The position numbers and the translations under genes are program-made. Under the pieces are notes generated by a model. It worked only from the letters and a program-made list of their open reading frames with translations. It had not been told where the DNA came from and did no database searches. A stretch of DNA of 47,975 nt, from NCBI GenBank assembly GCA_029862925.1, contig JAOTWJ010000008.1, positions 1 through 47,975 of the forward strand, read 5' to 3'. Within the stretch, counting starts at the first letter, position 1. Each line of letters begins with the position of its first letter. Shown in pieces: positions 23,533-40,015 of this stretch. This DNA is from Gemmatimonadota bacterium. Lineage in GTDB: Bacteria; Gemmatimonadota; Gemmatimonadetes; Gemmatimonadales; GWC2-71-9.

Positions 23533-23536
23533 GACG

Positions 23537-24552
23537 ATGACGGCCACACTGCCCCAACGGAGTCCCAAGGATTTCGCGTCCGACCAGGAGGTGCGCTGGT
23601 GTCCGGGCTGTGGCGACTACGCGATTCTCAAAGCGGTGCAGAAGGCGCTCGCCGACCTCGGGGCCCGCCGCGAAAACACGGTGTTCGTCTCTGGCATCGG
23701 CTGCGCCGCGCGGTTCCCGTACTACGTCTCGAGCTATGGCTTTCACACCATTCACGGGCGCGCGCCCGCCATCGCCACGGGCGTGAAGCTCGCCAATCCG
23801 GACCTGGATGTCTGGGTCATCACGGGCGACGGGGACGGACTCTCGATTGGTGGCAACCACATGCTCCACGTCCTGCGACGTAACGTGGATCTCCAGGTGA
23901 TCCTGTTCAACAACGAGGTCTACGGTCTCACCAAGGGTCAGTACTCGCCCACGTCACGCCGGGGCTTCCGCTCGCCCTCCACCCCCATGGGCTCGGTGGA
24001 TAACCCGATCGCGCCGGGGGCGTTCGCGCTTGGCGTCGGCGCCCGCTTCGTGGCCCGCTCGGTGGATACGCTCCTGCCGCACCTGGTCGAAACGCTCAAG
24101 CGGGCGCACCAGCACCGCGGCACTTCGTTCGTCGAAGTGTTCCAGAACTGCGTCGTGTTCAACGACGGCGCGTTCGCGAGCTTCACCGACAAGAGTCTCG
24201 CGTCCGACCAGCAGCTCCACCTCGAGCACGGCAAGCCGATGGTGTTCGGAAGGCGAAAGACAAGGGGATTCGCATCAAGCCCGGCACGCTCAAGCTCGAG
24301 GTCGTGACGGTGGGCGCAAACGGGGTCTCGCCGGAGGAGCTGCTCGTCCACGACGAGACCGACCACGCCCTCGCCCAGATGCTGGTCGCGATGCAACCAC
24401 CCGAGCTTCCCCAGGCCCTCGGTGTGATCTACTGCGCTCCGGCCCCTACCTACGAGCGCGAAGCCCTGGCGCAGGTTCGCACCGAGGGACTTGCCACGGC
24501 CGACCTCAATGCCGTGCTGCGCAAAGGCCGGGTTTGGGCAATTGGGGGGTGA
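23537..24552 (+). CDS. korB: 2-oxoacid:acceptor oxidoreductase, beta subunit (set 1), reading frame interrupted near 24250
   Basis: RWCPGCGDYAILKAVQ, FVSGIGCAARFPYYVSSYGFHTIHGRAPAIATG, GDGDGLSIGGNH; C-terminal part in another frame: AKDKGIRIKPGTLKLEVVTVGANGVSPEELLVHDETDHALAQML...APTYEREALAQV. Confidence 0.85.
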
Positions 24553-24798: not shown

Positions 24799-26709
24799 AT
24801 GTCCAGTTCCTCCCCGGTAGTGACGAAGAAGGCCAGGGCCTCGAAGGACGCCGCCGGCCCGGTCGTCATCCGGGTTCCTGAACACACCGTCGAGATCGTC
24901 TCCGATTCCGGCGAGGGCGCCCAGAAGTGCGGGCAGATCTTCGGTCAGGTCTCCGCCAAGATGGGCAACGGCGCGTGGACCGTGGAGATCATCCCGGCCG
25001 AGATTCAGCCCCCGGCCCGCTCGGGGCCGGGGGCCTCCGGCAACCGGATCCGCATCGGTACCCAGCCGGTCACCAACTGGGGCGATGCGGCCAACCTGGT
25101 TGTGGCCTTCAACGAGCAGGCGCTGCTGGCGCGCCACGAGCTGGAAGCGCTGCACGAGGACGCCATCGTGCTCGTCGAGAACAGGTGGGCTACGCACGAT
25201 GACGACGACATCCGCCGCGAATGGACCACCGCCATGGAGGTGCTGGGGAAGCAGGACTATCGCATCATCCCCGTGCCGATGGAGGAGCAGTGCCTCACGG
25301 TGACCGACAACCCGCGGCGCGGGAAGAACATGTTCGTGCTCGGGATGCTGGCCTGGATCTACGATCGGGACATCGAGTTGATTCGGGACGCCATCCGGCA
25401 GTCGTTCCGCAAGAAGGCTGAGGCGGTGGCACGCGCGAACATCGAGTTGATGGAGCTCGGTTACCGGTGGGCGGAGGCCAATCTCGACTTTCGGGTCGAG
25501 GTCCCCATCGAGAAGCCGCCCACGCCGATGATCGTGCTGAACGGGAACCAGGCCCTGGCGATGGGCGCGGTCGCGGCCGGCATGGACCTGTGCGCGATGT
25601 ATCCCATCACGCCGGCCACCTCGGTCTCGCACTACCTCGGCGAGATCTTCGAGGATTTCGGCGGCATCGTGCACCAGGCGGAAGACGAGATCGCGGCCGC
25701 CGGGGTTGCGATCGGGGCGTCGTACGCCGGCAAGGTGGCATTCACGGTGACCTCCGGCCCGGGGTTGGCGCTCAAGACGGAGTTCATCGGGCTCGCGACG
25801 ATGACCGAAGTGCCGCTCGTGGTGCTGGACGTGCAACGCGGCGGTCCGAGCACGGGTCTGCCCACCAAGGTGGAGCAGTCGGACCTGCTCGCGGCCCTCT
25901 ACGGGCAACCCGGCGACGCGCCCAAGGTCGTGATGGCGCCCGCCACGATCGAAGAGTGCTTTCACATGGTGGTCACGGCGCGCCGCATCGCCGAGCTGTT
26001 CCGGTGCGTCGTGATGGTGCTCACCGACGCGAACCTGGCGACCGGCGTGCAGCCGTTCCCGCGGCCGCAGCTCGACCCGCGCTGGCAGGCGGCGCCGCCG
26101 GACCTGCGCCCGGTCCCCGAGGGCGTGAAGCCGTACGACTGGGATCCGGCGTCGGGGCTGTCCCGCCGGTTCATTCCCGGCCAGCCCGGCGGCATGCACA
26201 CGCTCACGGGCCTGTCGCACGACGAGTACTCGCACGTGGGGTACAGCCCCGACGTGCACGAGCGCGGCTGCGCCATGCGGAGCCGGAAGCTCGCGGTGTT
26301 CCAGACCACGCTGAAGCCGCCGGGCGTGTACGGGGACACGAAAGGAGATCTCCTGGTCGTGGGATGGGGATCCACCAAGGGGGCGATCGAGGAAGCGGTG
26401 GACCGCGCCCGGGCGCGGGGCCTGCGCGTGTCCTCGCTGCACCTGCGCATCCTGTCGCCCCTCGAGCCGGGGCTGAAGGAGATCTTCAGCCGGTTCCGCA
26501 AGGTGGCCACCGTCGAGATCAACTACTCCGATCGCCTGGGTGACCCGTATATCACCCGGGAGAATCGGCGCCTGGGACAGTTGGCCTGGTTGCTCCGGGC
26601 CCACACGCTGGTGGACGTGGACTGCTGGACCCGGGTGCCGGGTCAGCCGCTCCGTCCCAAGGGGATTCTGGAGGGCATCGAGAGCATGATGCCCGGGGGG
26701 CACGCGTGA
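24799..26709 (+). CDS. korA: 2-oxoacid:acceptor oxidoreductase, fused gamma-alpha subunit (set 2)
   Basis: VEIVSDSGEGAQKCGQIFGQVSAKMG; MYPITPATSVSHYLGEIFEDFGGIVHQAEDEIAAAGVAIGASYAGKVAFTVTSGPGLALKTEFIGLA. Confidence 0.9.
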   Translation: MSSSSPVVTKKARASKDAAGPVVIRVPEHTVEIVSDSGEGAQKCGQIFGQVSAKMGNGAWTVEIIPAEIQPPARSGPGASGNRIRIGTQPVTNWGDAANLVVAFNEQALLARHELEALHEDAIVLVENRWATHDDDDIRREWTTAMEVLGKQDYRIIPVPMEEQCLTVTDNPRRGKNMFVLGMLAWIYDRDIELIRDAIRQSFRKKAEAVARANIELMELGYRWAEANLDFRVEVPIEKPPTPMIVLNGNQALAMGAVAAGMDLCAMYPITPATSVSHYLGEIFEDFGGIVHQAEDEIAAAGVAIGASYAGKVAFTVTSGPGLALKTEFIGLATMTEVPLVVLDVQRGGPSTGLPTKVEQSDLLAALYGQPGDAPKVVMAPATIEECFHMVVTARRIAELFRCVVMVLTDANLATGVQPFPRPQLDPRWQAAPPDLRPVPEGVKPYDWDPASGLSRRFIPGQPGGMHTLTGLSHDEYSHVGYSPDVHERGCAMRSRKLAVFQTTLKPPGVYGDTKGDLLVVGWGSTKGAIEEAVDRARARGLRVSSLHLRILSPLEPGLKEIFSRFRKVATVEINYSDRLGDPYITRENRRLGQLAWLLRAHTLVDVDCWTRVPGQPLRPKGILEGIESMMPGGHA

Positions 26710-27662
26710 TGGAGACCTCGTGTTCGTTCCTGAGCTGCGATCACGACGACGACGAGCGCAGCTGGACCATGGAAGACTACGCGGGTGCCATTCCGCGCTG
26801 GTGTCCCGGCTGCGGGGATCACGCCATCCTCGCCGCGGTTGAGCGGCTGCTCGAGACCGAGCAGCTGCCCCCTGAGCGCACGGTGTTCGTCTCGGGCATC
26901 GGGTGCTCCAGCCGCTTTCCGCACTATCTGACGACGTACGGGTTTCACGGCATTCACGGTCGGGCGCTTCCCATTGCGACCGGGGTGAAGCTGCGGCGGC
27001 CGGACCTCCACGTGTTCGCGGTGATGGGCGATGGGGACTGCTGCTCCATCGGCGCGGGACACTGGATCCACGCCGTGCGCTACAACGTGGACATGGTGGC
27101 CTTGATGCTCGACAACGGCATCTACGGGCTCACCAAGAACCAGACGTCGCCCACGACCCCGCAGGGCCATCCGAGCAACACGCAGCCCAAGGGGAGTCAT
27201 CTGATGCCCCTCAACCCCCTCTCGGCCACGCTGGGCGTCTCCAACGCCTCGTTCGTGGCGCAGACGGCTGACTGGATGCCCGCGCACGTGTACGCGACCA
27301 TCGCTGCGGCCTTCCGGCATCGCGGCTTCTCGTTCGTGCGGATTCTGCAGCGCTGCCCGCAGTACACCGACGATCTGTTCCAGGAAGCGGTGCGCAATCC
27401 GAACCTGGTGGAGATGCTCGTGCATCCCGATGGTGTGGACGCGCCGGAGCTGGAGAAGATCTTCAAGAACCGACGGGTGCACGACCCCAAGGACCTGGAC
27501 ATGGGGCGCCACCTGGCGGAGCCCTTCGATCGCATCCGGCTCGGGATCTTCTTCCGCGACGAGTCGCGCCAGCGCTATGAGGAGCTCCGGCACCAGCGGA
27601 TCCACACCGCGCAGGAGCGCATCGACCGGCTGAACGAGGAGTTCGAGAAGTATGCCGTCTGA
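26706..27662 (+). CDS. korB: 2-oxoacid:acceptor oxidoreductase, beta subunit (set 2)
   Basis: PRWCPGCGDHAILAAVERL, FVSGIGCSSRFPHYLTTYGFHGIHGRALPIATGVKLRRPDLHVFAVMGDGDCCSIGAGH; ATGA overlap. Confidence 0.9.
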   Translation: MMETSCSFLSCDHDDDERSWTMEDYAGAIPRWCPGCGDHAILAAVERLLETEQLPPERTVFVSGIGCSSRFPHYLTTYGFHGIHGRALPIATGVKLRRPDLHVFAVMGDGDCCSIGAGHWIHAVRYNVDMVALMLDNGIYGLTKNQTSPTTPQGHPSNTQPKGSHLMPLNPLSATLGVSNASFVAQTADWMPAHVYATIAAAFRHRGFSFVRILQRCPQYTDDLFQEAVRNPNLVEMLVHPDGVDAPELEKIFKNRRVHDPKDLDMGRHLAEPFDRIRLGIFFRDESRQRYEELRHQRIHTAQERIDRLNEEFEKYAV

Positions 27663-28653
27663 CGAACGCACCGCGGCCATTCTCGCGGCCCTGGCCGCTC
27701 CGCGGGACGCGTATCGCTCTGCCCTGGCGGCGACACTGGACGAGGTCCGCGTCTACCGGGATGCGCGCCGCGAGGGCGCTGCCGACCGCCACATGCAACT
27801 TGGGGCGAGCCTCGGGCTCGTCGGGGTGGCGCACGTCGATGTCGATCGACTGGCCGCCGTGCTCTCGGTGGAGGCCGCCCTCGAGCCGGCGGCGCAGGCG
27901 GTCATGCCACGGGCCCTCGCGGTCTTGGAGTCGCTCGCCGCGCGCGGTGATGACGCCTGCGCCCTGACGCTCGTCCCCGGCGAGAACCTCTACGAGGCGG
28001 TCAGCCGCCTGTTCGCGGACCTGGGCCGCGCCATAGGGGCGGGGCGCGTCGTGGATCTGGCGCGCAGCGGCCGCTACCGGCCCGCGGATCATGACCGCTG
28101 GCTCGAGGCGTTCCCGTTCGGACAGTGGAGCCAAGCGGAGCGCCGGATGGCCCCACCCGTGGTGATCGAGCTCGAGGGCAGCGATCTCCGGCCCGCGGGC
28201 CTGGCCGAGTTCCTCGACGGCGGCGCCAAGATCGTCCTGGTGGTCCACGGCGAGACGTCGCCCGCGCCGCTGGTGCGTCTCATCACGCCGCGCACGTTCG
28301 TGGCGCAAACCGCCGACGTCGCCGTAGTCCAGCGGCTGGCCGCGTGGGATGGCCCCGGCATCGCCGGGATCTTCCCGGCTGGCGGGGCGCGGTTCGTCCA
28401 CGATCCCGGGGTCGCCGGCGGGATCGGTGCGCGGCTCACGATCACGGAGGTCCCCACGCTCGACGGGCGGCGGCGCGCCGGCCCGTTCTCCGCGACGCAA
28501 CAGCAAGACGAGCTCGACCAACTCAAGGCGCTGCAGGGCGCCGCCGCCGCCGACCTCGCGGTGCCGGTCGCGCCCCAGCCGGCCACGCCCGCGGACCCGG
28601 TGGACAAGCTGGCGGCCTGGCTGCTGCAGCAGGCGGACCTTTCGGGCGCGTGA
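27652..28653 (+). CDS. Uncharacterised 333-aa protein between korB2 and rnfB
   Basis: 11-bp overlap with korB2, stop one base before rnfB GTG; no recognised catalytic or Fe-S motif. Confidence 0.75.
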   Translation: MPSDERTAAILAALAAPRDAYRSALAATLDEVRVYRDARREGAADRHMQLGASLGLVGVAHVDVDRLAAVLSVEAALEPAAQAVMPRALAVLESLAARGDDACALTLVPGENLYEAVSRLFADLGRAIGAGRVVDLARSGRYRPADHDRWLEAFPFGQWSQAERRMAPPVVIELEGSDLRPAGLAEFLDGGAKIVLVVHGETSPAPLVRLITPRTFVAQTADVAVVQRLAAWDGPGIAGIFPAGGARFVHDPGVAGGIGARLTITEVPTLDGRRRAGPFSATQQQDELDQLKALQGAAAADLAVPVAPQPATPADPVDKLAAWLLQQADLSGA

Positions 28654-28654
28654 C

Positions 28655-29518
28655 GTGCTGAGCGCGTCGAGCTTCCTCGTGTCCGCCGCCGTGCTCGGCG
28701 GGGTCGGGACGTTCTTTGCGTCGGTGATCGCCCTCGCGCGGAAGAAGCTCTACGTGTGGGAGGATCCGCGCATCGATGCGGTGGCCAACCTGCTCCCGGG
28801 AAACAACTGCGGCGCCTGCGGGCTGGCGGGCTGCCGGGCGTTCGCCGAGCGGCTCGTGGAAGGAGCCATCCAGCCGGCCAACTGCACGGTGGCGTCGCCG
28901 GACATGCGGGAGGACATCGCCGGGTATCTGGGAGTGGACGTGGGCGCGGCGACCACACGAGTCGCCCGCCTGCTGTGCGCCGGCGGGTGCGACGTGGCGC
29001 CCAACAACGCCGACTACCTGGGGCTCCAGACGTGTCGCGCCGCCGCGGCCGTCGCCGGCGGCGGCAAGGCCTGCGCCTGGGGCTGCCTGGGGCTCGCCGA
29101 CTGCCGGGATGTGTGCGACTTCGACGCGATCTACATGAACGAAGTCGACCTCCCGGTGGTGATTCCGGAGAAGTGCACGGCCTGCGGCGACTGCGTCGAG
29201 GCCTGTCCCAAGGACCTGTTCACGTTGATGCCGGTCGAGCAGAAGCTGATCGTGCAGTGCAAGAACCTGCTCGAGGGCGACGAGGCCACGACGGCCTGCG
29301 CGGTGGCCTGCAACGCGTGCGGCCGCTGCGTAGCCGACGGCGCCCCGGGACTCATCGAGATCGTGCACGGGCTGGCCGTGATCGACTACGACAAGAACGC
29401 GACGGCCTCGCCGGACGCCATCACCCGGTGCCCGACGGGCGCCATCGTCTGGGTGGATGGCGCTCAGCAGCTCGGTCCCGAGCGTCTGGAGAAGGTGTTG
29501 GAGGGAGCCGGACGATGA
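28655..29518 (+). CDS. rnfB: RnfB-like electron-transport protein with Fe-S clusters
   Basis: GTG start; N-terminal TM (SFLVSAAVLGGVGTFFASVIALA); LLPGNNCGACGLAGCRAFAERLVEGAIQPANCTVA; EKCTACGDCVEACPKDLF; CNACGRCVADGAPGLIEI. Confidence 0.87.
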   Translation: MLSASSFLVSAAVLGGVGTFFASVIALARKKLYVWEDPRIDAVANLLPGNNCGACGLAGCRAFAERLVEGAIQPANCTVASPDMREDIAGYLGVDVGAATTRVARLLCAGGCDVAPNNADYLGLQTCRAAAAVAGGGKACAWGCLGLADCRDVCDFDAIYMNEVDLPVVIPEKCTACGDCVEACPKDLFTLMPVEQKLIVQCKNLLEGDEATTACAVACNACGRCVADGAPGLIEIVHGLAVIDYDKNATASPDAITRCPTGAIVWVDGAQQLGPERLEKVLEGAGR

Positions 29519-32500
29519 TCAAGATCAGGAACGCGAAGCCCAGTGTGACAGAGCAGGCGAAGCCCAAGTACCCCGGCCTGCGCACGGCCACGGACGGCAG
29601 CGGTGCCATCGTCGAGATGGAAACCGCGGGGAGCGAAGGCGCCGGCGCGTACCCCATCACCCCGTCCACGCAGATGGGCGAGGGCTGGGCCGTGGCGGTG
29701 GCGGCCGGGAAGCTCAACGTGAACGGGCGGTCGCTCCTGTTCTTCGAGCCCGAGGGCGAGCACGCCGCCGCCGCGGTCACGGCCGGCATGAGCATGACCG
29801 GCCTCCGCGCCACCAACTTCTCGAGCGGCCAGGGCATCGTGTACATGCACGAGTCGCTCTACGCCGCCGTCGGCAAGCGACTCACGTACGTCCTGAACAT
29901 CGCCGCTCGCGCCATCACCAAGCACGCGCTCAACGTGCACGCCGGCCACGACGACTACCACGCCGTGGACGACACCGGGTTCTTCCAGGTCTTCGCCAAG
30001 AACGTGCAGGAAGCGGCCGACCTGAACCTCATCGCGCACCGCATCGCGGAGCTGTCGCTCAATCCGGGGATCGTGGCGCAGGATGGGTTCCTCACGAGCC
30101 ACGTGATCGAGTCCATGGTCATGCCGGAGCCCGAGCTTGTCCGGGAGTATCTCGGTGATCCCGCGGACGTGATCGAGTCGCCCACGGCGGCACAGCGCTG
30201 GGTGTTCGGCGCGCACCGCCGACGGATCCCCGAGGTGTTCAACCTCGATTACCCGGCCATGCTGGGGACGGTGCAGAACCAGGACAGCTACGCGCAGGGC
30301 GTGGCGGCGCAGCGGCCGTTCTACTTCGACCACCTGCCCGAGCTGGCCGACCGGGCCATGGCGGAGTACGGCGCCCTGACCGGGCGCTGGTACAGCCGCG
30401 CCATGGGATACCGCCTCGACGACGCCGAGTGGGTGCTCGTGGGCCAGGGGAGCGTGATCCCCAACTGCGAGGCCGTGGTGGACCACCTGCGCGCCACGCG
30501 GAAGCTCAAGGTTGGCGTGCTCAACGTGACCATGTTCCGGCCGTTCCCGGCGGACCTGATCACGCAGCTCCTGGTGGGGAAGCGCGGCGTGACGGTGCTC
30601 GAGCGTACCGACCAGCCGCTGGCCGTGGACCTGCCGCTGCTGCGGGAGATCCGCGCCGCGATATACAAGGCGCTAGAGAACGGACGGAGTCCGGCCGCGC
30701 CGCCGTATCCGTCACTCACGCCGTGCAGCATCGAGCAGATGCCCGACTTCTACTCGGGCTGCTTCGGACTCGGCAGCCGCGATCTCCAGCCTGCCGACCT
30801 GATCGCGGCGGTCGACAACATGCTGGACGGGGGCGGGAAGCGTCGCCAGTTCTACCTGGGCATCGACTTCATCCGGAGCGATACGCGGTTCCCGAAGCTC
30901 CAGATCTGGCAGGAGGAGTTGCTGGAGGCGTATCCGGCCGTGGCCGATCTGTCGCTCAAGCCGGCGGCCCCGGTGAACCTGATGCCCAAGGGAGCCGTCT
31001 CCATCCGGATCCACTCGGTGGGCGGCTGGGGCGCCATCACCACGGGCAAGAACGTGGCGCAGACGGCCGCCGATCTCTGCGGGCTCCACATCCAGGCCAA
31101 CCCCAAGTACGGATCGGAAAAGAAGGGTCAGCCCACGACGTTCTACGCCACGCTGGCGCACGAACCCATCAAGGTGAACGCCGAGCTGAAGTTTGTCTCG
31201 GTGGTGCTCTCGCCCGACCCCAACGTCTTCAAGCACTCGGACCCACTGGCCGGTCTCCAGGACGGCGGCGTGTTCATCATGCAGGGTGACCGTCCGCCGG
31301 TGGACGTGTGGCGCAGCCTCCCGCCGTCGGCCCGGAAGCAGATCACCGACCGGCACTACAAGTTCCACCTGCTCGACGGGTTCAAGATCGCCAGCGACGA
31401 AGCGAGCGATCCCGAACTGCGCTACCGGATGCAGGGTGCGGCGTTCATGGGGGCGTTCTTCCGCGCCGCGCCGCTCGCGCAGGCCGAGAACCTCACCGAG
31501 CAGGCCGTCTTCGAGGGCATCCGCAAGCAGCTCGAGAAGAAGTTCGGCCATCTAGGTCAGAAAGTGGTCGAGGACAACGTCCGCGTGATTCAGCGTGGCT
31601 ACGATGAGCTGATCGAGGTGGATCCGGCCAAGCTCACGCTCGAGGGCGACGAGCAGGTGGGTGGGGTGCCGCAGATGCCGGCGATCCTCGGCGGGACCAA
31701 TGTGGAGCCGGGCATCGGGCACGGCGGCCGGTTCTGGGAACAGGTCTGCCTGCTCAACAAGATGGGCGAGGACGGCATCGCCGATCCGTTCGCCGCGCTC
31801 TCGGCCATTCCCGCCGCGACCAGCACCATCCGCGACATGACCCATGTCCGGTTCGAGGTGCCGGAGTTCGTCGCAGACAAGTGCACCGGCTGCAGTCAGT
31901 GCTGGGTGCAGTGTCCGGACTCGGCCATTCCGGGCGTGGTGAACGATGTCCAGGAGGTGCTGGAGGCCGCGGTGCGGTCGCTCGAGAACGGCCGGCGCCT
32001 CGACAAGGTCCGGCAGATCCTGAAACCGCTCGCGACCGAGGCGCGGAAGACGCTGAAGGCCGTGCCGTTCACCACCTTCGGCGCGACGCTCGCGACGGCG
32101 TACCAGACGGTGGTCGAGCGGCTGGGCATCGACCCGGAGCGGCGTCAGGCGCTGGATGCCGAGTTCGCAGCCGTGCACTCGACCCTGGCGGAGTTCCCGC
32201 TCGCCAAGACCACGCCCTTCTTCGATCTGCCCGAATCCAAGCAGAAGGGGACGGGCGGCCTGCTCTCCATCACGATCAACCCCGACGCGTGCAAGGGCTG
32301 CAACATCTGCGTCGCCGCGTGCCCCGACGGCGCGCTCATCACGGTCAAGCAGACCGACGAGATCGTCGAGAAGCTGCGGCGAAACTGGCACACCTGGCAG
32401 TTCCTCGCCGAGACCGACGATCGGTACGTGAACATCGCGAGTCTCGAGGAAGGGATCGGCGTGCTGTCGTCGCTCCTGCTCAAGCAGAGCCACTATCGCT

Positions 32501-34581
32501 CGATGGTGGGCGGTGACGGCTCCTGCATGGGCTGCGGCGAGAAGACGGTCCTGCACCTCGTGGTGGCGGCGATCCAGGCCACCATGCTGCCGCGCGTGAA
32601 GCAGTACGTGGCCCGGCTCGATGAGTTGACCGCGGAGCTCGACACGAAGGCCCGTGCCCTGCTCGCCTCCGACGTGACGCTCGGCACGGTCGCGAAGGGA
32701 GCGGCAAGCACGGTAGACATCCCGCTCGCGCCGGAGAAGCAGGCGCGCGTGGACCGCATCGCCGCCATGATTGACGAGCTCAAGGACCTCAAGTGGCGGT
32801 ACACCGAGGGCCCGAGCGGGAAGGGCCGGGCCATGACGGGCATCGCGAATGCGACGGGGTGCTCGTCCGTCTGGGGCAGCACCTACCCGTACAACCCGTA
32901 CCCGTTCCCCTGGGTGAACCACCTGTTCCAGGACGCGCCGTCCATTGCCATCGGCCTGTTCGAGGGCCACATGCGGAAGATGGCCCTCGGCTTCGCGACG
33001 GTGCGGCGCGCCGAGCTGGAGCTGAAGGACGAGTACGACCCGAAGCTCCACACGGACTTCTTCGGCCGGTTCGACTGGCACCAGTTCACGGATGACGAGT
33101 TCGCCATGTGTCCGCCGATCCTGGCAGTTGGCGGTGACGGCGCCATGCTGGATATCGGGTTCCAGAACCTCTCGCGCCTGTTGGCGTCCGGGAAGCCGAT
33201 CCGCGTGGTCGTCCTCGACACGCAGGTCTACTCGAACACGGGCGGCCAGGCCTGCACCAGCGGGTTCACCGGCCAGGTCAGCGACATGGCCGCGTGGGGC
33301 AAGGCGCAGCACGGCAAGACGGAGACGCGCAAGGAGCTCTCGCTCCTCTCGATGGCGCACCGCAACGTGTTCGTGGTGCAGTCGTCGCAGGCGGCGCCGT
33401 CGCACCTGCTGGGCGGCGTGCTCCGCGGGCTGCAGTCCCGCTACCCCGCGGTGTTCTCCCTGAACTGTCCGTGCCCGCCGGAGCACGGGCTGGGCGACGA
33501 CGCGGCGCTGGCCGCCGCCAAGCTGGCGCTCGAGTCTCGGGCATTCCCGCTCATCATCTACGACCCGTCGGCGGGTCCGGCGTTGGCCGACCAGCTGAGC
33601 CTCGACGGCAATCCGATGCTCGACGAGGTCTGGCCGACGTACGACCTGCGGTACAAGGACGAGGGGGGGAACGAGCAGACCCTGACGCTCCCCATGACCG
33701 TCGCGGACTGGGCGGCCACCGAGGCGCGGTTCAAGAAGCACTTCAAGGTGCTGCGGGACGATGTGGATGCCGACGTCCTGCTGCGGTTCGACGAGTTCCT
33801 GGCGGCGTCACCCGAGGACCGGGTCGGCAAGACGCCGTACATTCACGCGCTCAGCAGAGATGGCCACCTGTACCGGCTCTCGGTGTCGCGTGAGATCGTG
33901 GAGTTGGCCGAGGACCGGTTGGCGCTGTGGCACCAGCTGCGGCAGATGGCGGGCCTCGAGCTGGCCGACTCCGCGCGCGACAGCCTGGCCGGCGAGATCG
34001 AGACCGCGTTCGAGCAAAAGGCCGAGCAGTTGAAGGCCGAGCATGCCCAGACCGTGGCGGAGTTGCGGGCCAAGTACCCTGCGGCCATCGCGCGACGCAT
34101 GGCGGAAGGCCTGGTCCGGGCCACCGACAACGGTCAAGAGCGCGTCGCCGATCTGCTCAAGCGCGTGCAGGAGATGCGGAGCCTGGAGCCGCTGGGGAAG
34201 GTGGATCTGGGCGGTGGCAACGGTGGCGGTGCCGCGGTCGCCACGGCCCCTGCCGCCCCTGCCACGACTGCCGCTCCTGCCGCTGCCGCACCAGCGGCGG
34301 CAGCAGTGGCAGAAGAGGCGGAGGAAGGCATCGGCCTCGAACCCTACATCCAGTCCGAGCTGTGCACGGCGTGCAACGAGTGCACCAACCTCAACAAGCG
34401 GATGTTCGCCTACAACGAGAAGAAACAGGCGTACATCAAGGACGCGAAGGCCGGTACGTTCCGCGAGCTCGTCATGGCAGCCGAGAAATGCCCGGTGGCC
34501 ATCATCCACCCGGGCACACCGCTCAATCCGAAGGAGAAGGACCTGGGTAAGTGGGTCAAGCGGGCGGAGCGGTTTAGCTGA
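29515..34581 (+). CDS. Long pyruvate:ferredoxin oxidoreductase-like protein (1688 aa) with C-terminal ferredoxin-like domain
   Basis: GAYPITPSTQMGEGW; EGEHAAAAVTAGMSMTGLRATNFSSGQGI; CTGCSQCWVQCPDSAIPG; CKGCNICVAACPDGAL; GDGSCMGCGEKTVLHLV; NATGCSSVWGSTYPYNPYPFPWVNHLFQD; VLDTQVYSNTGGQACTSG; Ala/Pro linker then ELCTACNECTNLNKRMF...AEKCPVAIIHPG. ATGA overlap with rnfB. Confidence 0.9.
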   Translation: MIKIRNAKPSVTEQAKPKYPGLRTATDGSGAIVEMETAGSEGAGAYPITPSTQMGEGWAVAVAAGKLNVNGRSLLFFEPEGEHAAAAVTAGMSMTGLRATNFSSGQGIVYMHESLYAAVGKRLTYVLNIAARAITKHALNVHAGHDDYHAVDDTGFFQVFAKNVQEAADLNLIAHRIAELSLNPGIVAQDGFLTSHVIESMVMPEPELVREYLGDPADVIESPTAAQRWVFGAHRRRIPEVFNLDYPAMLGTVQNQDSYAQGVAAQRPFYFDHLPELADRAMAEYGALTGRWYSRAMGYRLDDAEWVLVGQGSVIPNCEAVVDHLRATRKLKVGVLNVTMFRPFPADLITQLLVGKRGVTVLERTDQPLAVDLPLLREIRAAIYKALENGRSPAAPPYPSLTPCSIEQMPDFYSGCFGLGSRDLQPADLIAAVDNMLDGGGKRRQFYLGIDFIRSDTRFPKLQIWQEELLEAYPAVADLSLKPAAPVNLMPKGAVSIRIHSVGGWGAITTGKNVAQTAADLCGLHIQANPKYGSEKKGQPTTFYATLAHEPIKVNAELKFVSVVLSPDPNVFKHSDPLAGLQDGGVFIMQGDRPPVDVWRSLPPSARKQITDRHYKFHLLDGFKIASDEASDPELRYRMQGAAFMGAFFRAAPLAQAENLTEQAVFEGIRKQLEKKFGHLGQKVVEDNVRVIQRGYDELIEVDPAKLTLEGDEQVGGVPQMPAILGGTNVEPGIGHGGRFWEQVCLLNKMGEDGIADPFAALSAIPAATSTIRDMTHVRFEVPEFVADKCTGCSQCWVQCPDSAIPGVVNDVQEVLEAAVRSLENGRRLDKVRQILKPLATEARKTLKAVPFTTFGATLATAYQTVVERLGIDPERRQALDAEFAAVHSTLAEFPLAKTTPFFDLPESKQKGTGGLLSITINPDACKGCNICVAACPDGALITVKQTDEIVEKLRRNWHTWQFLAETDDRYVNIASLEEGIGVLSSLLLKQSHYRSMVGGDGSCMGCGEKTVLHLVVAAIQATMLPRVKQYVARLDELTAELDTKARALLASDVTLGTVAKGAASTVDIPLAPEKQARVDRIAAMIDELKDLKWRYTEGPSGKGRAMTGIANATGCSSVWGSTYPYNPYPFPWVNHLFQDAPSIAIGLFEGHMRKMALGFATVRRAELELKDEYDPKLHTDFFGRFDWHQFTDDEFAMCPPILAVGGDGAMLDIGFQNLSRLLASGKPIRVVVLDTQVYSNTGGQACTSGFTGQVSDMAAWGKAQHGKTETRKELSLLSMAHRNVFVVQSSQAAPSHLLGGVLRGLQSRYPAVFSLNCPCPPEHGLGDDAALAAAKLALESRAFPLIIYDPSAGPALADQLSLDGNPMLDEVWPTYDLRYKDEGGNEQTLTLPMTVADWAATEARFKKHFKVLRDDVDADVLLRFDEFLAASPEDRVGKTPYIHALSRDGHLYRLSVSREIVELAEDRLALWHQLRQMAGLELADSARDSLAGEIETAFEQKAEQLKAEHAQTVAELRAKYPAAIARRMAEGLVRATDNGQERVADLLKRVQEMRSLEPLGKVDLGGGNGGGAAVATAPAAPATTAAPAAAAPAAAAVAEEAEEGIGLEPYIQSELCTACNECTNLNKRMFAYNEKKQAYIKDAKAGTFRELVMAAEKCPVAIIHPGTPLNPKEKDLGKWVKRAERFS

Positions 34582-34641: not shown

Positions 34642-35970
34642 GTGTTCGATAGGTTGACGTTCCGGCATGGAGTGCATCCGCCGGAACTGAAGCAGCTCAC
34701 GGCCCACCTCAAGATCCGGCGGCTGCCGTATCCCAAGGAAGTCGTGCTACCGCTGAGCCAGCACACTGGCAAGCCGGCCAAACCCATCGTGCGAGTCAGC
34801 GACCGCGTCGAGCGCGGCGACCTGATTGCCGAGGCCGACGGGTGGGTCTCCTCGCCCATTCACGCGTCCGCCAGTGGCACCATCACCGAACTGGGCCTGA
34901 GCCCGCACCCGGACGGCACGTTCAAGCCAGCGCTGTATATCGCGGTGGAGCCCTACTCGGCACAGCTGCCGCGGCCGCGTTTGGTGCCGGACTGGCGCGG
35001 GCTGGACCGGGACGGGTTGCTGCACGCCGTGCAGCACGCGGGTGTGGTTGGGTTGGGCGGCGCGGCGTTCCCCACACACGTCAAGCTGAAGCCACCGCCG
35101 GACAAGCCCATCGAGATGATCCTCGTGAACGGCTGCGAGTGCGAGCCCTATCTCACGACGGACCACCGCACGATGGTCGAGTACCCCAACCGGATCCATC
35201 TCGGTGTCCGGATCATGATGAAGATCCTGGGTGTCTCGAAGGTGGTGATCGGCGTCGAGCGCAACAAGCCGGATGCCGTCGAGGCGCTCGAACGCACCCG
35301 GCCAGCCGACCTGGACGTCACGGTCCTGCCGCTCACGGTCAAGTATCCGCAGGGCGCCGAGAAGATGCTGATCGAGGCGGTCACGGGCCGCGAAGTGCCG
35401 TCCGGTAAACTGCCGCTGGACGTGGGCTTGGTCGTGCAGAACGCGGCCTCGGTCGGGACCATCGCTGAGGTGTTCGAGACCGGACTCCCGCTGGTGGAGC
35501 GCATCGTGACGGTGACGGGGCTGGGCATCCGGAAGCCCGCCAACCTGATCGTGCCGGTGGGTACCAAGCTCCGCGACCTGCTCGATGCGTGTGGCGGCAT
35601 GACGGACGATGCCCGCGAGATCGTGTTCGGCGGCCCCATGATGGGGGCCGCCCAGGCCAACCTGGATACGCCGCTCACCAAGGGCACCACGGGCGTCATC
35701 GTGCTGGCGGAGCGGGAGTGCAAGACGCAGGACTCGTATCCGTGCATCCGGTGCGGCCACTGCCTGGACGCCTGTCCGGTCTTCCTCAATCCGCAGCAGC
35801 TGGGCAAGCTCGCGGCTGCGGGCCGGTACGACGAGATGGCGGCGGCGTACCACCTCAACGACTGCATGCTCTGCGGCTGCTGCTCCTACGTCTGCCCGTC
35901 GAACATCCCCCTGTCGCAGCAGTTCGCGGCCGCCCGGGTCGCGCTGCGCCAGCGAAAGCCGGCGGCATGA
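34642..35970 (+). CDS. rnfC: RnfC, NADH/FMN-binding subunit of Rnf complex
   Basis: HPPELKQLTAHLKIRRLPYPKEVVLPLSQHTGKPAKPIV; GLGGAAFPTHVKLKPP; NGCECEPYLTTDHR; CIRCGHCLDACPVFLNP; CMLCGCCSYVCPSNIPL. Confidence 0.95.
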   Translation: MFDRLTFRHGVHPPELKQLTAHLKIRRLPYPKEVVLPLSQHTGKPAKPIVRVSDRVERGDLIAEADGWVSSPIHASASGTITELGLSPHPDGTFKPALYIAVEPYSAQLPRPRLVPDWRGLDRDGLLHAVQHAGVVGLGGAAFPTHVKLKPPPDKPIEMILVNGCECEPYLTTDHRTMVEYPNRIHLGVRIMMKILGVSKVVIGVERNKPDAVEALERTRPADLDVTVLPLTVKYPQGAEKMLIEAVTGREVPSGKLPLDVGLVVQNAASVGTIAEVFETGLPLVERIVTVTGLGIRKPANLIVPVGTKLRDLLDACGGMTDDAREIVFGGPMMGAAQANLDTPLTKGTTGVIVLAERECKTQDSYPCIRCGHCLDACPVFLNPQQLGKLAAAGRYDEMAAAYHLNDCMLCGCCSYVCPSNIPLSQQFAAARVALRQRKPAA

Positions 35971-36971
35971 GCGACGCCCGGTACCTCGTCACCGCCTCAC
36001 CGCACCTCCGCAGCCGCGACTCCACGCCCACCATCATGTGGTCGGTGGTGGGGAGCCTGATGCCGGTGGCGGCGTTCGCGGTCTACTACTTCGGGCCGAG
36101 CGCCCTGCTGGTGATCCTCGCGTCGGTCGTGGGGGCCGTAGGAACCGAAGCGGCGTGGGGCAAGAAGGGGGCGGTGCGCGACGGCTCCGCCGCCATCACG
36201 GGCATCCTGCTGGGCCTGTGCCTCCCGGCGGGGCTCCCGCTCTGGATGGCCGTGCTCGGCGGCGCGTTCAGCATCGGCTTCGGCAAGATCGTCTTCGGGG
36301 GGCTGGGGCAGAACATCTTCAACCCGGCGCTGCTGGGACGCGCGTTCCTCCAGGCGGCGTTCCCCGTGGCGCTCACCACGTGGCCCGCGGTCGAGAACGT
36401 GCCGTGGTGGTCGCTGCGCGGCGACAACTTCGCGCTGCCGCTGATGGGCAGCCGCGTGGACGCGGTGACCACCGCCACGCCGCTGGGCCTGATGAAGTTC
36501 GAGCAGGTGACGACGCCCATCCGTGACCTGGCGTTCGGCACCACGGCGGGATCGCTGGGGGAGACGGGCGCCGTCCTGATCCTGCTCTGCGGCGGGTACC
36601 TGGCGCTCAACAACTACCTCAACTGGCGGATCCCGGCGAGCATCTTCCTGTCCGTGGCCGCGTTCACCACCGTGCTGCACCTGATCGACGGCGCGCGGTA
36701 TCCCACGCCCCAGTTCATGCTGCTCTCGGGCGGCCTCATGCTCGGCGCCATGTACATGGCCACCGACATGGTGACCTCGCCCACCACCAACCGCGGGAGC
36801 TGGATCTTCGGGGTGGGCATCGGCTTCCTGGTGGTGCTGATCCGGCTGTGGGGCGGCCTGGCCGAGGGTGTGATGTACGCCATTCTCATCATGAACGCGC
36901 TGGTGCCGTTCATCAATCGCGCCACGCAGCCGCGCGTCTTCGGCACCACACGCGCCAAGGCGGCCGCATGA
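35967..36971 (+). CDS. rnfD: RnfD
   Basis: VTASPHLRSRDSTPTIMWSVVGSLMPVAAFAVYYFG; GGLGQNIFNPALLGRAFL; DAVTTATPLGLMKF; ATGA overlap. Confidence 0.94.
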   Translation: MSDARYLVTASPHLRSRDSTPTIMWSVVGSLMPVAAFAVYYFGPSALLVILASVVGAVGTEAAWGKKGAVRDGSAAITGILLGLCLPAGLPLWMAVLGGAFSIGFGKIVFGGLGQNIFNPALLGRAFLQAAFPVALTTWPAVENVPWWSLRGDNFALPLMGSRVDAVTTATPLGLMKFEQVTTPIRDLAFGTTAGSLGETGAVLILLCGGYLALNNYLNWRIPASIFLSVAAFTTVLHLIDGARYPTPQFMLLSGGLMLGAMYMATDMVTSPTTNRGSWIFGVGIGFLVVLIRLWGGLAEGVMYAILIMNALVPFINRATQPRVFGTTRAKAAA

Positions 36972-37624
36972 CTGCGCCCGCCACCCAACCACCTCGCCCG
37001 TCGGCCTCCGCGCAGCGCCTCATCGGCACGCTGGGCGGGTTCGGCGTGCTGGCGGGCCTGCTGATCGTGTCGGTGTTCGCGGCCACGCAGCCGCGGATCC
37101 GCGCCAACAAGGCCGCGGCGCTGGCCGCCGCCATCAACGAGGTGCTCGCGGCGCCGGAGCACTACGACACGCTGTACGTGACCGCGGACTCGCTGTCGCA
37201 CACGCTCCCGGCGGGCGGCAACGCCGAGACCGCGGAGGCGGTGTACCTGGGATGGCGGGAAGGGCGGCCCGCGGGGTTTGCCATCGTCGCCAATGGGCCC
37301 GGCTTCCAGGACAACATCCGGCTCATCTTCGGGTTCGACGCCGCGTCGTCGCAGCTGCTCGGCATGAAGGTGCTGGAGTCCAAGGAAACGCCGGGCCTGG
37401 GCGACAAGATCTACAAGGACGCGGAGTTCGTGGCGCAGTTCACCCGCGTGCGCGCGCCCCTGGTGGGGGTGAAGGAAGGCCAGGGCGAGGGACTGCCCAC
37501 CGAGCTGGTGATGATCACGGGTGCCACCATCTCGTCCCGGGCGCTCATCAAGGCCATCAACACGACGCTCGAGCGGGTAGGGCCGTTGCTCGCGGCGTAC
37601 GTGCCGCAGGAGTCGCAGCCGTGA
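36968..37624 (+). CDS. rnfG: RnfG (FMN-binding)
   Basis: LESKETPGLGDKIYKDAEFVAQF; VMITGATISSRALIKAIN flavinylation-type motif; ATGA overlap. Confidence 0.93.
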   Translation: MTAPATQPPRPSASAQRLIGTLGGFGVLAGLLIVSVFAATQPRIRANKAAALAAAINEVLAAPEHYDTLYVTADSLSHTLPAGGNAETAEAVYLGWREGRPAGFAIVANGPGFQDNIRLIFGFDAASSQLLGMKVLESKETPGLGDKIYKDAEFVAQFTRVRAPLVGVKEGQGEGLPTELVMITGATISSRALIKAINTTLERVGPLLAAYVPQESQP

Positions 37625-38286
37625 GCCCGCGAAAGCCAACGCCGCCGTCGCAGGAGCTGATCAAGGGGGTCTGGCGCGAGAACCCGGTGCTCGTGCAGCT
37701 GCTCGGGCTCTGTCCCGCGCTGGCGGTCACGAACTCGGTGGCCAACAGCCTGGCCATGAGCGCCGCCGTGCTGTTCGTGCTCGTGGGATCGAGCCTGCTG
37801 GTCTCCACGATCAAGCGGATCGTGCCGTCGGACGTGCGAATCTCCACGTACATCCTGATCATCGCCACGTTCGTCACGATTGCCGACATGATCCTCGAAG
37901 CCTCGGTGCCGGCGGTGCACAAGGAGCTGGGCGCATTCGTGGCGCTGATCGTGGTGAATTGCATCATCCTGGGCCGGCAGGAAGCGTTCGCGTCGCGCAA
38001 CTCCGTGGGCCGCTCGCTGCTGGACGCGGTGGGCATGTCCATCGGGTTCACGCTCACCATGGTGCTGATGGGCACGGTCCGGGAGGTGCTCGGCAACGGC
38101 ACGTTCCTCGGCATCAGCGTGATGGGGCCGCATTACGAGCCGTGGGTCATCATGATCCTGCCGCCGGGCGGGTTCCTCACGCTCGGCACGATCCTCCTGG
38201 TGTTCAGCTGGATCAAGCGGCGTGGCGAGGAGCGGGCCAAGCCGGCCACGGCGGCCGCGGGACCGGCCGTGGGGAAGGCGGCCTAG
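37621..38286 (+). CDS. rnfE: RnfE
   Basis: GVWRENPVLVQLLGLCPALAVTNSVANSLAMSAAV; IVVNCIILGRQEAFASRNSVGRSLLDAVGMSIGFT; GTG start with GTGA overlap. Confidence 0.94.
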   Translation: MSPRKPTPPSQELIKGVWRENPVLVQLLGLCPALAVTNSVANSLAMSAAVLFVLVGSSLLVSTIKRIVPSDVRISTYILIIATFVTIADMILEASVPAVHKELGAFVALIVVNCIILGRQEAFASRNSVGRSLLDAVGMSIGFTLTMVLMGTVREVLGNGTFLGISVMGPHYEPWVIMILPPGGFLTLGTILLVFSWIKRRGEERAKPATAAAGPAVGKAA

Positions 38287-38287
38287 C

Positions 38288-38866
38288 ATGGGCGACCTGA
38301 TCTGGATCCTGGTCTCGGCCGCCGTGGTGAACAACTTCACCCTGGCGCTGTTCCTGGGGCTGTGCCCGTTCCTGGGCGTCTCGGGGAAAGTGGAGACGGC
38401 CGTGCGGATGGGGGCCGCCAACATCTTCGTCATGGTGCTCACGGCCCTGGCGGTATGGGTGCTGAACACGTTCCTGCTCGTGTCGGCGCCGTATCTCCGC
38501 ATCATCGCGTTCATCATCGTCATTGCGTCCCTGGTGCAGATCGTCGAGATGGCCATCAAGAAGCTGAGTCCCGCGCTGTTCCAGGCACTCGGCATCTATC
38601 TGCCGCTGATCACGACCAACTGCGCCATCCTGGGCCTCGCCATCTTCTCGACCAACCGTGGCTACGGCCTGCTGGAAGGCCTCTTCTTTGCCGTGGGCGG
38701 TGGGCTGGGCCTCACGCTGGCGCTCGTGCTGATGGCGTCCATCCGGGAGAACCTCGAGCTGGCGGACGTCCCGGATTTCGCGAAGAACATGGGTCTGGTC
38801 CTCATCCTGGCCGGCGCGCTCTCCTTGGCGTTCATGGGCTTTGCCGGCATGTTCAGCGCCGCATGA
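38288..38866 (+). CDS. rnfA: RnfA
   Basis: SAAVVNNFTLALFLGLCPFLGVSGKVETAVRMGAANIFVMVL; LPLITTNCAILGLAIF. Confidence 0.94.
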   Translation: MGDLIWILVSAAVVNNFTLALFLGLCPFLGVSGKVETAVRMGAANIFVMVLTALAVWVLNTFLLVSAPYLRIIAFIIVIASLVQIVEMAIKKLSPALFQALGIYLPLITTNCAILGLAIFSTNRGYGLLEGLFFAVGGGLGLTLALVLMASIRENLELADVPDFAKNMGLVLILAGALSLAFMGFAGMFSAA

Positions 38867-39039
38867 CCACCGTCATCGCGGTCGGCGCCCTGGCGGTGCT
38901 GTTCGCCGTGTTCGGCCTGATGCAGCGGGGCCGGGAGCGAACGTCGTGTCACAACTGCTCGTGTCACGGCAGCACGTGCGAGCGCACGGGCGAGCCGCGG
39001 CACCTCGAGCTGGTGGAGTCCAACGATGTCGGATCGTGA
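38863..39039 (+). CDS. 58-aa membrane-anchored Cys-rich protein
   Basis: MTTVIAVGALAVLFAVFGLMQRGRERTSCHNCSCHGSTCERTGEPRHLELVESNDVGS; ATGA overlap with rnfA and 14-bp overlap with apbE. Confidence 0.75.
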   Translation: MTTVIAVGALAVLFAVFGLMQRGRERTSCHNCSCHGSTCERTGEPRHLELVESNDVGS

Positions 39040-40015
39040 GCCGGTAGTCCGGTCGGCGCGCACGCGGCGCGAGTTCGTGGCCCTCGGGGTAGGGGCGTTG
39101 GTGGTGGCGTCGGTGCCGTGGCGCGTGCGCCGACGTGTGCTGGCCCAGCGCACCGTGCCGAGCATGGGGACGATTGCGGACTTTGCGGTGGTACACCGGG
39201 ACGAGCCCTACGCACAGGCCGCCATCGGCGCCGCCCTCGCGCGGCTCCGGATGGTGGAGGCGCTGATGACGCGCTACCGGCCGTCGTCGGATGTAGGCCG
39301 CGCCAACCGCGGCGCGGCGCGCGACGGGGTGCTGGTCACACCCGAGACGGCCACCGTGCTCCGCGCGTCGCTCGACTGGGCCACGCGGACCGACGGCGCG
39401 TTCGATCCCGCCTTGGATGGCGTCGTGCAGCTCTGGGACGTGGGCCACCGGACGACCCCGCCGGCACGGGACGCGGTACGTCGCTACGCGGGGCGTGGGC
39501 TCTACCGGGGCCTGGATGTGAGCACGTGGTCCGGCAAGCCGGCCGTGCGGTTCACGCAGCCGGACCTGGGCATCGACTTGGGCGGCATCGCCAAGGGCTA
39601 CGGCGTGGATCAGGCCGTGGCGGTGCTGCGGGACTGGGGCATCGAACACGCGCTCGTGAACGTGGGGGGCGACCTCTACGCCATGGGCCGGTCCGCCGAT
39701 GGCGGGCCGTGGCGCGTGGGCGTGCGGTCGCCCGACCGCGCGGATCAGCTGGTGGCCGAGTTCGATCTCGAGGATGCGGCGGTGGCCACGTCCGGGGATT
39801 ACCTCCAGTACTTCGAGTACGGCGGGCGCCGGTACCACCATCTGCTCGATCCCGTCACTGGAGAGCCGCGCGTGAGCGTCATGCGGAGCATCACGGCGCA
39901 GGCGGGCGACTGCATGACGGCGGACGCCGCGGCGACTGCGTGCTTTGGGCAGGATCCGGTCGCGGCGCGCACGTGGCTCACGCCCGCCGGGGCTCACATC
40001 GCGCACTCCGTGTAG
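39026..40015 (+). CDS. apbE: FAD:protein FMN transferase (ApbE)
   Basis: SMGTIADFAVV; MTRYRPSSDVGRANR; DLGGIAKGYGVDQAVAVL; ALVNVGGDLYAMG; RYHHLLDPVTGEP; Tat-like RREFVALGVGALVVASVP. Confidence 0.93.
   Translation: MSDREPVVRSARTRREFVALGVGALVVASVPWRVRRRVLAQRTVPSMGTIADFAVVHRDEPYAQAAIGAALARLRMVEALMTRYRPSSDVGRANRGAARDGVLVTPETATVLRASLDWATRTDGAFDPALDGVVQLWDVGHRTTPPARDAVRRYAGRGLYRGLDVSTWSGKPAVRFTQPDLGIDLGGIAKGYGVDQAVAVLRDWGIEHALVNVGGDLYAMGRSADGGPWRVGVRSPDRADQLVAEFDLEDAAVATSGDYLQYFEYGGRRYHHLLDPVTGEPRVSVMRSITAQAGDCMTADAAATACFGQDPVAARTWLTPAGAHIAHSV

Follow-up and report, generated by a model that had tools for sequence, protein, structure and literature searches.

A pyruvate:ferredoxin oxidoreductase with a predicted tethered ferredoxin, encoded inside an rnf operon of Gemmatimonadota

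Ferredoxin normally is a soluble carrier shared between pyruvate:ferredoxin oxidoreductase (PFOR) and the Rnf ion pump. In a stretch of 47,975 nucleotides from a Gemmatimonadota bacterium (assembly GCA_029862925.1, contig JAOTWJ010000008.1, positions 1 to 47,975 of the forward strand; hereafter the window), a long PFOR-like gene lies between rnfB and rnfC, and its product ends in a ferredoxin-like domain. This raises the question of whether the carrier is here tied to the enzymes that use it. An original prediction, made from the letters alone, held that such a tethered ferredoxin could swing between the PFOR cluster chain and RnfB/RnfC and would make a diffusible carrier unnecessary. The analysis described below makes it fairly likely that the operon specifies an Rnf ion pump together with dedicated 2-oxoacid oxidoreductases and a dedicated ferredoxin, which is covalently tethered as a tail and shuttles to RnfB.

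The open reading frame (ORF) of 1688 amino acids (aa) was confirmed at 29515-34581 (+). Its start codon overlaps the rnfB stop codon (ATGA at 29515), and the order rnfB-PFOR-rnfC was confirmed by homology. Besides domains I and III, Pfam identified domain II (PFOR_II, aa 304-386) and domain VI (TPP_enzyme_C, aa 1201-1252) in the order typical of PFORs, as well as two [4Fe-4S] motifs. Among 47 full-length relatives, the eight cysteines of the internal ferredoxin domain (domain V) are found in 47/47 and the four proximal-cluster cysteines in 46/47, and the thiamine pyrophosphate (TPP) motif and substrate residues (T49, E82, R132, G1207-D1208-G1209 and N1241) are present and mostly conserved. T49, E82 and R132 correspond to T31, E64 and R114 of the Desulfovibrio africanus PFOR, in which the roles of these residues are established. 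The alignment to this enzyme (1b0p) covers aa 25-818 and 1109-1356. Judged by its sequence, the ORF encodes a member of the PFOR superfamily that has the ligands of three internal [4Fe-4S] clusters. As it scores far under the cut-off of the NifJ equivalog model TIGR02176 (406 versus 911 bits), it represents a diverged line within the superfamily. The features of the protein are listed below, with confidence of the structure models given as predicted local distance difference test (pLDDT) values.

29515-34581 (+): PFOR of 1688 aa with predicted C-terminal tethered ferredoxin (Pfam, alignment, conservation)
29635-30300 (+): domain I (POR_N, aa 41-262) with substrate/TPP residues T49, E82 and R132 (Pfam, 1b0p alignment, conservation)
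31021-31605 (+): domain III (POR, gamma, aa 503-697; Pfam)
31882-31917 (+): [4Fe-4S] motif 1 of the internal ferredoxin domain, C790/793/796/800 (conserved in 47/47)
31930-32259 (+): helical insert between both internal cluster motifs, aa 806-915 (alignment of relatives, model)
32290-32325 (+): [4Fe-4S] motif 2 of the internal ferredoxin domain, C926/929/932/936 (conserved in 47/47)
32524-33474 (+): proximal-cluster cysteines C1004, C1007, C1116 and C1320, and TPP motifs
33130-33144 and 33229-33249 (+): TPP motifs GGDGA and YSNTGGQ, respectively (conservation)
33622-33954 (+): accessory folded domain of ~110 aa, aa ~1370-1480 (pLDDT 95-98, Foldseek)
33967-34125 (+): predicted 53-residue helix, aa 1485-1537, a possible spacer arm (AlphaFold2 model)
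34195-34338, approximately (+): Gly/Ala/Pro-rich disordered linker, aa ~1561-1608 (pLDDT mostly <60, much <50)
34339-34578 (+): single-[4Fe-4S] ferredoxin tail of 80 aa, C1617/1620/1623/1659 (Fer4_13, 1dax/1fxr, pLDDT 95-97)

The complete PFOR motifs of the original prediction were thus recovered, as were its two CxxCxxC motifs, which start at 31882 and 32290 in the form CxxCxxCxxxCP. Its estimate of roughly 500 aa in excess of a classical PFOR also agrees with the solved PFORs (1171-1232 aa), which are shorter by about 460-520 aa. This excess is not all tail: it is spread over the insert between the cluster motifs (~806-915), another before the TPP domain (~1021-1100), the accessory domain, the helix, the linker and the tail, and much of it is also found in a tailless sister family (1593-1634 aa). 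The accessory domain, modelled with AlphaFold2 as part of the C-terminal 329 aa, gave no convincing PDB match with Foldseek. It is common to tailed and tailless PFORs and to the degenerate homologues described below.

The ferredoxin signature and the linker before it, placed by the original prediction at 34.20-34.33 kb, are equally well borne out. Fer4_13 (single-cluster ferredoxin I) was detected by Pfam in the full protein at aa 1615-1665 (E = 3.3e-6), with 28.1 bits, and with 35.1 bits in the tail alone, both over the cut-off of 24.5. When a profile of 14 tails was compared with the PDB, one sequence matched, D. africanus ferredoxin I (E = 4.6e-8), and the Foldseek top match of the tail model was the same protein, 1fxr (0.9 Å root-mean-square deviation over 58 columns, TMt 0.84, 33% identity). 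The tail is therefore confidently modelled as a single-[4Fe-4S] ferredoxin fold resembling D. africanus ferredoxin I, and its four cysteines, encoded within 34363-34491, would bind the cluster. Past the ferredoxin core it continues in a conserved C-terminal extension, IHPGTPLNPKEKDLxKWxKRAxxF. In the 47 relatives the tail is gapless, with a mean identity of 72% (minimum 64%), so that it ranks with the best conserved regions of the PFOR, and all four cysteines are invariant (47/47), as they are in the type II tails (see below) that were inspected. The linker has a mean identity of 36%, and the segment corresponding to aa 1560-1617 varies between 41 and 89 residues. A conserved, gapless tail with invariant cysteines behind a divergent linker of variable length points to a functional domain held by a flexible tether.

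The tail was then searched in genome contigs, which yielded 451 coding relatives, and the genomic context was examined for the best 80 of them. The records of these 80 loci are labelled Gemmatimonadota, Rokubacteria, Planctomycetota, 'Deltaproteobacteria' and, in a few cases, otherwise; practically all of them are metagenome-assembled genomes, and the taxon labels may include binning errors. In this set the tail is on a PFOR, rnfC follows directly in 80/80 where the contig continues, and rnfB precedes wherever it is visible. Where more of the locus is covered, the genes run OFORα-OFORβ-ORF-rnfB-PFOR-rnfC-D-G-E-A-apbE (OFOR, 2-oxoacid:ferredoxin oxidoreductase). A tailed PFOR followed by rnfC was also found in loci drawn from the phylum of the window, Gemmatimonadota. 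Starting instead from rnfC in 298 Gemmatimonadota genomes, a RnfC more than 60% identical to that of the window was found in 59, all of which contain the PFOR family (59/59) and 58 of which have a listed tail; the remaining one, G175, is divided between contigs. In six genomes of a different class, the RnfC is 44% identical to that of the window, and the PFORs are ordinary ones of ~1220 aa or partial matches. No relative was found in viral contigs, searched with the whole PFOR and with the tail. Two single-contig genomes, G125 (L047/L048) and G158 (L045/L046), contain PFOR halves, each with half of an rnf operon, ~0.4-0.8 Mb apart; these broken genes reflect either misassembly or intragenic rearrangement.

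In the window, the gene order is OFORα-OFORβ-pseudoPFOR-rnfB-PFOR-rnfC-D-G-E-A-apbE. A second arrangement, named type II, has the order OFORα-OFORβ-[750-1302 aa protein with ferredoxin tail]-rnfB-[tailless PFOR-like protein]-rnfC-D-G-E-A and was found in the genomes that contain loci L117 (G300) and L085 (G301), as well as in relatives of G300 (L145, L146, L161-L168). Here the tail sits on a degenerate homologue of PFOR (pseudo-PFOR; profile match to PFOR with E = 4e-104). The tailless PFOR-like protein keeps all eight ferredoxin-domain cysteines and has lost the proximal-cluster cysteines and both TPP motifs (5/5), and from these residues is predicted to be catalytically dead. Locus L170 is intermediate: its pseudo-PFOR, upstream of rnfB, lacks the tail, and its PFOR, downstream of rnfB, carries one and has kept the catalytic residues intact. 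Among 62 operons in which both rnfB and rnfC are visible, the tail lies between them in 55 and upstream of rnfB in 7, and is never found in both places. As no live PFOR adjoins rnfC in type II, electrons within those operons could come only from OFORαβ, and the conserved principle appears to be one tethered ferredoxin per operon and not a PFOR feeding its own tail. Two further loci, L086 and L072, have tailed PFORs between rnfB and rnfC with decayed-looking TPP motif or substrate residues (in L086, GGDAALLD, with SNTGGQ lost), possibly a step towards the dead PFOR of type II.

Loss of the tail was observed as well. In genome G039, which lacks a RnfC of the window type, a PFOR 62% identical to that of the window ends before the linker and tail; as a tree computed with the tail left out places it inside the clade of tailed PFORs, its taillessness represents a loss. 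Sister PFORs (34-37% identical) encoded away from rnf are tailless, and in the Planctomycetota genome G299 such a sister coexists with a tailed rnf PFOR. These data support the notion that presence of the tail follows the rnf operon. Another apparent tailless case, G211, was dropped and not counted, because its contig ends inside the linker.

The published structure of the Acetobacterium Rnf complex assigns ferredoxin binding to RnfB and makes direct transfer between RnfB and RnfC unlikely (PMC11889175); docking of the tail on RnfC was therefore dropped. Two-subunit OFORs lack domain V and leave an open pocket in which an external ferredoxin can dock (PMC5020499). Together, these two observations lead to a model in which electrons would flow from OFORαβ and PFOR to the tail, RnfB and the membrane core, or in reverse. 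Since the tail is never present on both subunits, it most likely carries electrons from OFORαβ as well as from PFOR to RnfB, and its donor is probably more than its own PFOR. The proposal of the original prediction thus stands as far as the folded tail, the disordered linker and the rnf linkage are concerned, but not for RnfC as acceptor nor for its own PFOR as sole donor.

In detail, PFOR would oxidise pyruvate and pass the electrons via its three clusters to the tail, and OFORαβ would oxidise a second 2-oxoacid, the same tail docking in its open pocket because OFORαβ itself lacks a ferredoxin domain. Borne on a long arm made of the accessory domain, the 53-residue helix and the disordered linker, the tail would swing to RnfB, and Rnf would hand the electrons to NAD+ while pumping ions. 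Operating in reverse, the system could drive reductive carboxylation. It is plausible that no diffusible carrier is needed. Engineered fusions of hydrogenase and ferredoxin with tuned flexible linkers raised electron flux and hydrogen production up to four-fold (PMC2847965), and insulation of low-potential electrons is therefore a reasonable benefit of the tether. More tentatively, and with somewhat less than even chances, the 2-oxoacid oxidoreductases, the tethered ferredoxin and Rnf may form a single assembly that pumps ions as a 2-oxoacid:NAD+ oxidoreductase and at no point sets reduced ferredoxin free, the dead PFOR paralogues of type II serving as electron-conducting scaffolds. Such an assembly could open oxygen-sensitive low-potential chemistry to aerotolerant bacteria.

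Several points weigh against the tethered-ferredoxin pump. The lack of operons without a tail is a biased count, as loci were chosen by tail or PFOR, the unbiased parts being only the observation that the tail is never on both proteins and the rnfC-first scan of Gemmatimonadota; the operon counts are also raw and include shared ancestry. The model of 1200 aa is moderate (pLDDT 73.8), although Foldseek still recovers PFOR from it. The genome encodes another small single-cluster ferredoxin, so that free ferredoxin could still serve Rnf. Finally, G186 has a tail-bearing pseudo-PFOR of 750 aa in an OFORαβ operon (L141, 591-2840), with no RnfB in the 590 bp that follow, and its genome has no strong RnfC. 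The tail is therefore not strictly tied to Rnf, and may serve OFORαβ alone in some lineages. An orphan tail protein of 177 aa in G295 (L142, 8002-8532) likewise shows that the tail can occur without Rnf.

G186 and the other single-cluster ferredoxins of the genome would fit a tail that is the dedicated ferredoxin of OFORαβ and PFOR and passes electrons on to diffusible ferredoxin or to several acceptors, rnf being adjacent for co-regulation only. This appears improbable, since save in G186 and G295 the tail adjoins rnfB or rnfC in every operon observed over a sufficient length, G039 retained its PFOR while both Rnf and the tail were lost, the sister PFORs without rnf are tailless, and locus L117 has rnfB-PFOR-tail-rnfC without OFORαβ upstream. 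Even less probable is a mainly structural docking arm that tethers PFOR or OFOR to RnfB with its cluster off the electron path: the conserved C-terminal extension and the retention of the dead type II PFOR would suit it, but a mere anchor would not need the four invariant cluster cysteines. The idea of a standard NifJ-type PFOR whose C-terminal extension has no meaning accounts for the full PFOR domain set and is hardly credible in view of the NifJ score and of a tail that is conserved, confidently folded and similar to 1fxr. The alternative with most in its favour, if still on the unlikely side, is the same machine running backwards, with PFOR as pyruvate synthase: Rnf would draw on NADH and the ion gradient to reduce the tail, which would in turn supply reductive carboxylation. 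Reverse operation of Rnf is known (PMC11889175, PMC12174285), and the genome also encodes E1 genes of 2-oxoacid dehydrogenases that are available for the oxidative route. However, the sequence sets no direction, and this alternative overlaps the tethered-ferredoxin pump, which itself leaves the direction open.

A natural PFOR with a C-terminally fused electron acceptor is the pyruvate:NADP+ oxidoreductase of Euglena and Cryptosporidium, whose acceptor is a flavodoxin/P450-reductase module that reduces NADP+, whereas the PFOR of the window has a ferredoxin beside a membrane pump; the Pfam scan found no such module in the 1688-aa protein. Compared to the PFORs of D. africanus and Moorella (NifJ; 1b0p, 7plm, 6cin), it shares domains I, II, III, V and VI, the three-cluster ligands, the TPP motif and the catalytic residues, but has the added inserts, accessory domain, helix, linker and tail and is encoded inside rnf. 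The tail resembles D. africanus ferredoxin I (1fxr/1dax) in fold, CxxCxxC...CP ligands and sequence, but is fused to a PFOR or pseudo-PFOR and has the conserved C-terminal extension. Like the Rnf systems of Acetobacterium, Clostridium, Thermotoga and Azotobacter, the operon encodes RnfB, C, D, G, E and A, with RnfB as a polyferredoxin; in those systems, however, electrons come from soluble ferredoxin, whereas here OFOR/PFOR genes are interleaved with rnf. The Sulfolobus StOFOR is also an αβ enzyme without domain V that requires an external ferredoxin in an open pocket, but that of the window shares its operon with a tethered ferredoxin and Rnf. The synthetic hydrogenase-ferredoxin fusions used with D. 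africanus PFOR (PMC2847965) have in common a flexible linker that insulates low-potential electrons, but are engineered and carry the ferredoxin on the acceptor enzyme instead of on PFOR.

In the open-licence literature, covered mostly through titles and abstracts, no description of a tethered-ferredoxin PFOR in an rnf operon was found. A widespread natural fusion through which electrons are channelled covalently to an ion pump would amount to a new way of conserving energy, with the tailed PFOR as the natural counterpart of the engineered tethers. The operon is found in large uncultured lineages of soil, groundwater and sediment, whose energy metabolism is poorly known, and its two types, in one of which the tail has moved and the PFOR decays to a conduit, are natural controls for the parts needed in the electron path.

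The other genes of the operon, in which RnfB, C, D, G, E and A are all encoded together, are as follows.

24799-26709 (+): OFOR alpha subunit, domains III-I-II type (TIGR03710, 545 bits, above cut-off; conserved in the operon)
26706-27662 (+): OFOR beta subunit, TPP and one [4Fe-4S], without ferredoxin domain of its own (TIGR02177, 236 bits, cut-off 262; conserved in the operon)
27652-28653 (+): ORF27652, 333 aa, truncated tailless pseudo-PFOR remnant (profile-profile match)
28655-29518 (+): RnfB, the ferredoxin-accepting Rnf subunit (FeS, PF04060, and Fer4 domains; RnfB models)
34642-35970 (+): RnfC (TIGR01945, 517 bits, cut-off 246)
35967-36971 (+): RnfD (this and the next three from sequence, position and co-occurrence with rnfC in homologous operons)
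36968-37624 (+): RnfG
37621-38286 (+): RnfE
38288-38866 (+): RnfA
39026-40015 (+): ApbE, flavin transferase, presumably for RnfD/RnfG (sequence and position; conserved there in most operons)

RnfB stays under the cut-off of TIGR01944 (60.5 versus 68.7 bits) and of the long-RnfB models. ORF27652 has no Pfam or NCBIfam match, and direct BLAST found no similarity to the 750-aa protein of G186, but profile-profile comparison did, matching the type II tail-bearing family with E = 1e-15 over 281 columns. Its family is present in most of these operons. A scan for promoters and terminators gave no excess over shuffled sequence. A second OFOR alpha/beta pair lies directly upstream of the operon (window ~22400-24307), and the same genome encodes another unusual fusion, a patatin-like protein whose C-terminus is a single-cluster ferredoxin domain (G000:C223:8880-9041, L138).

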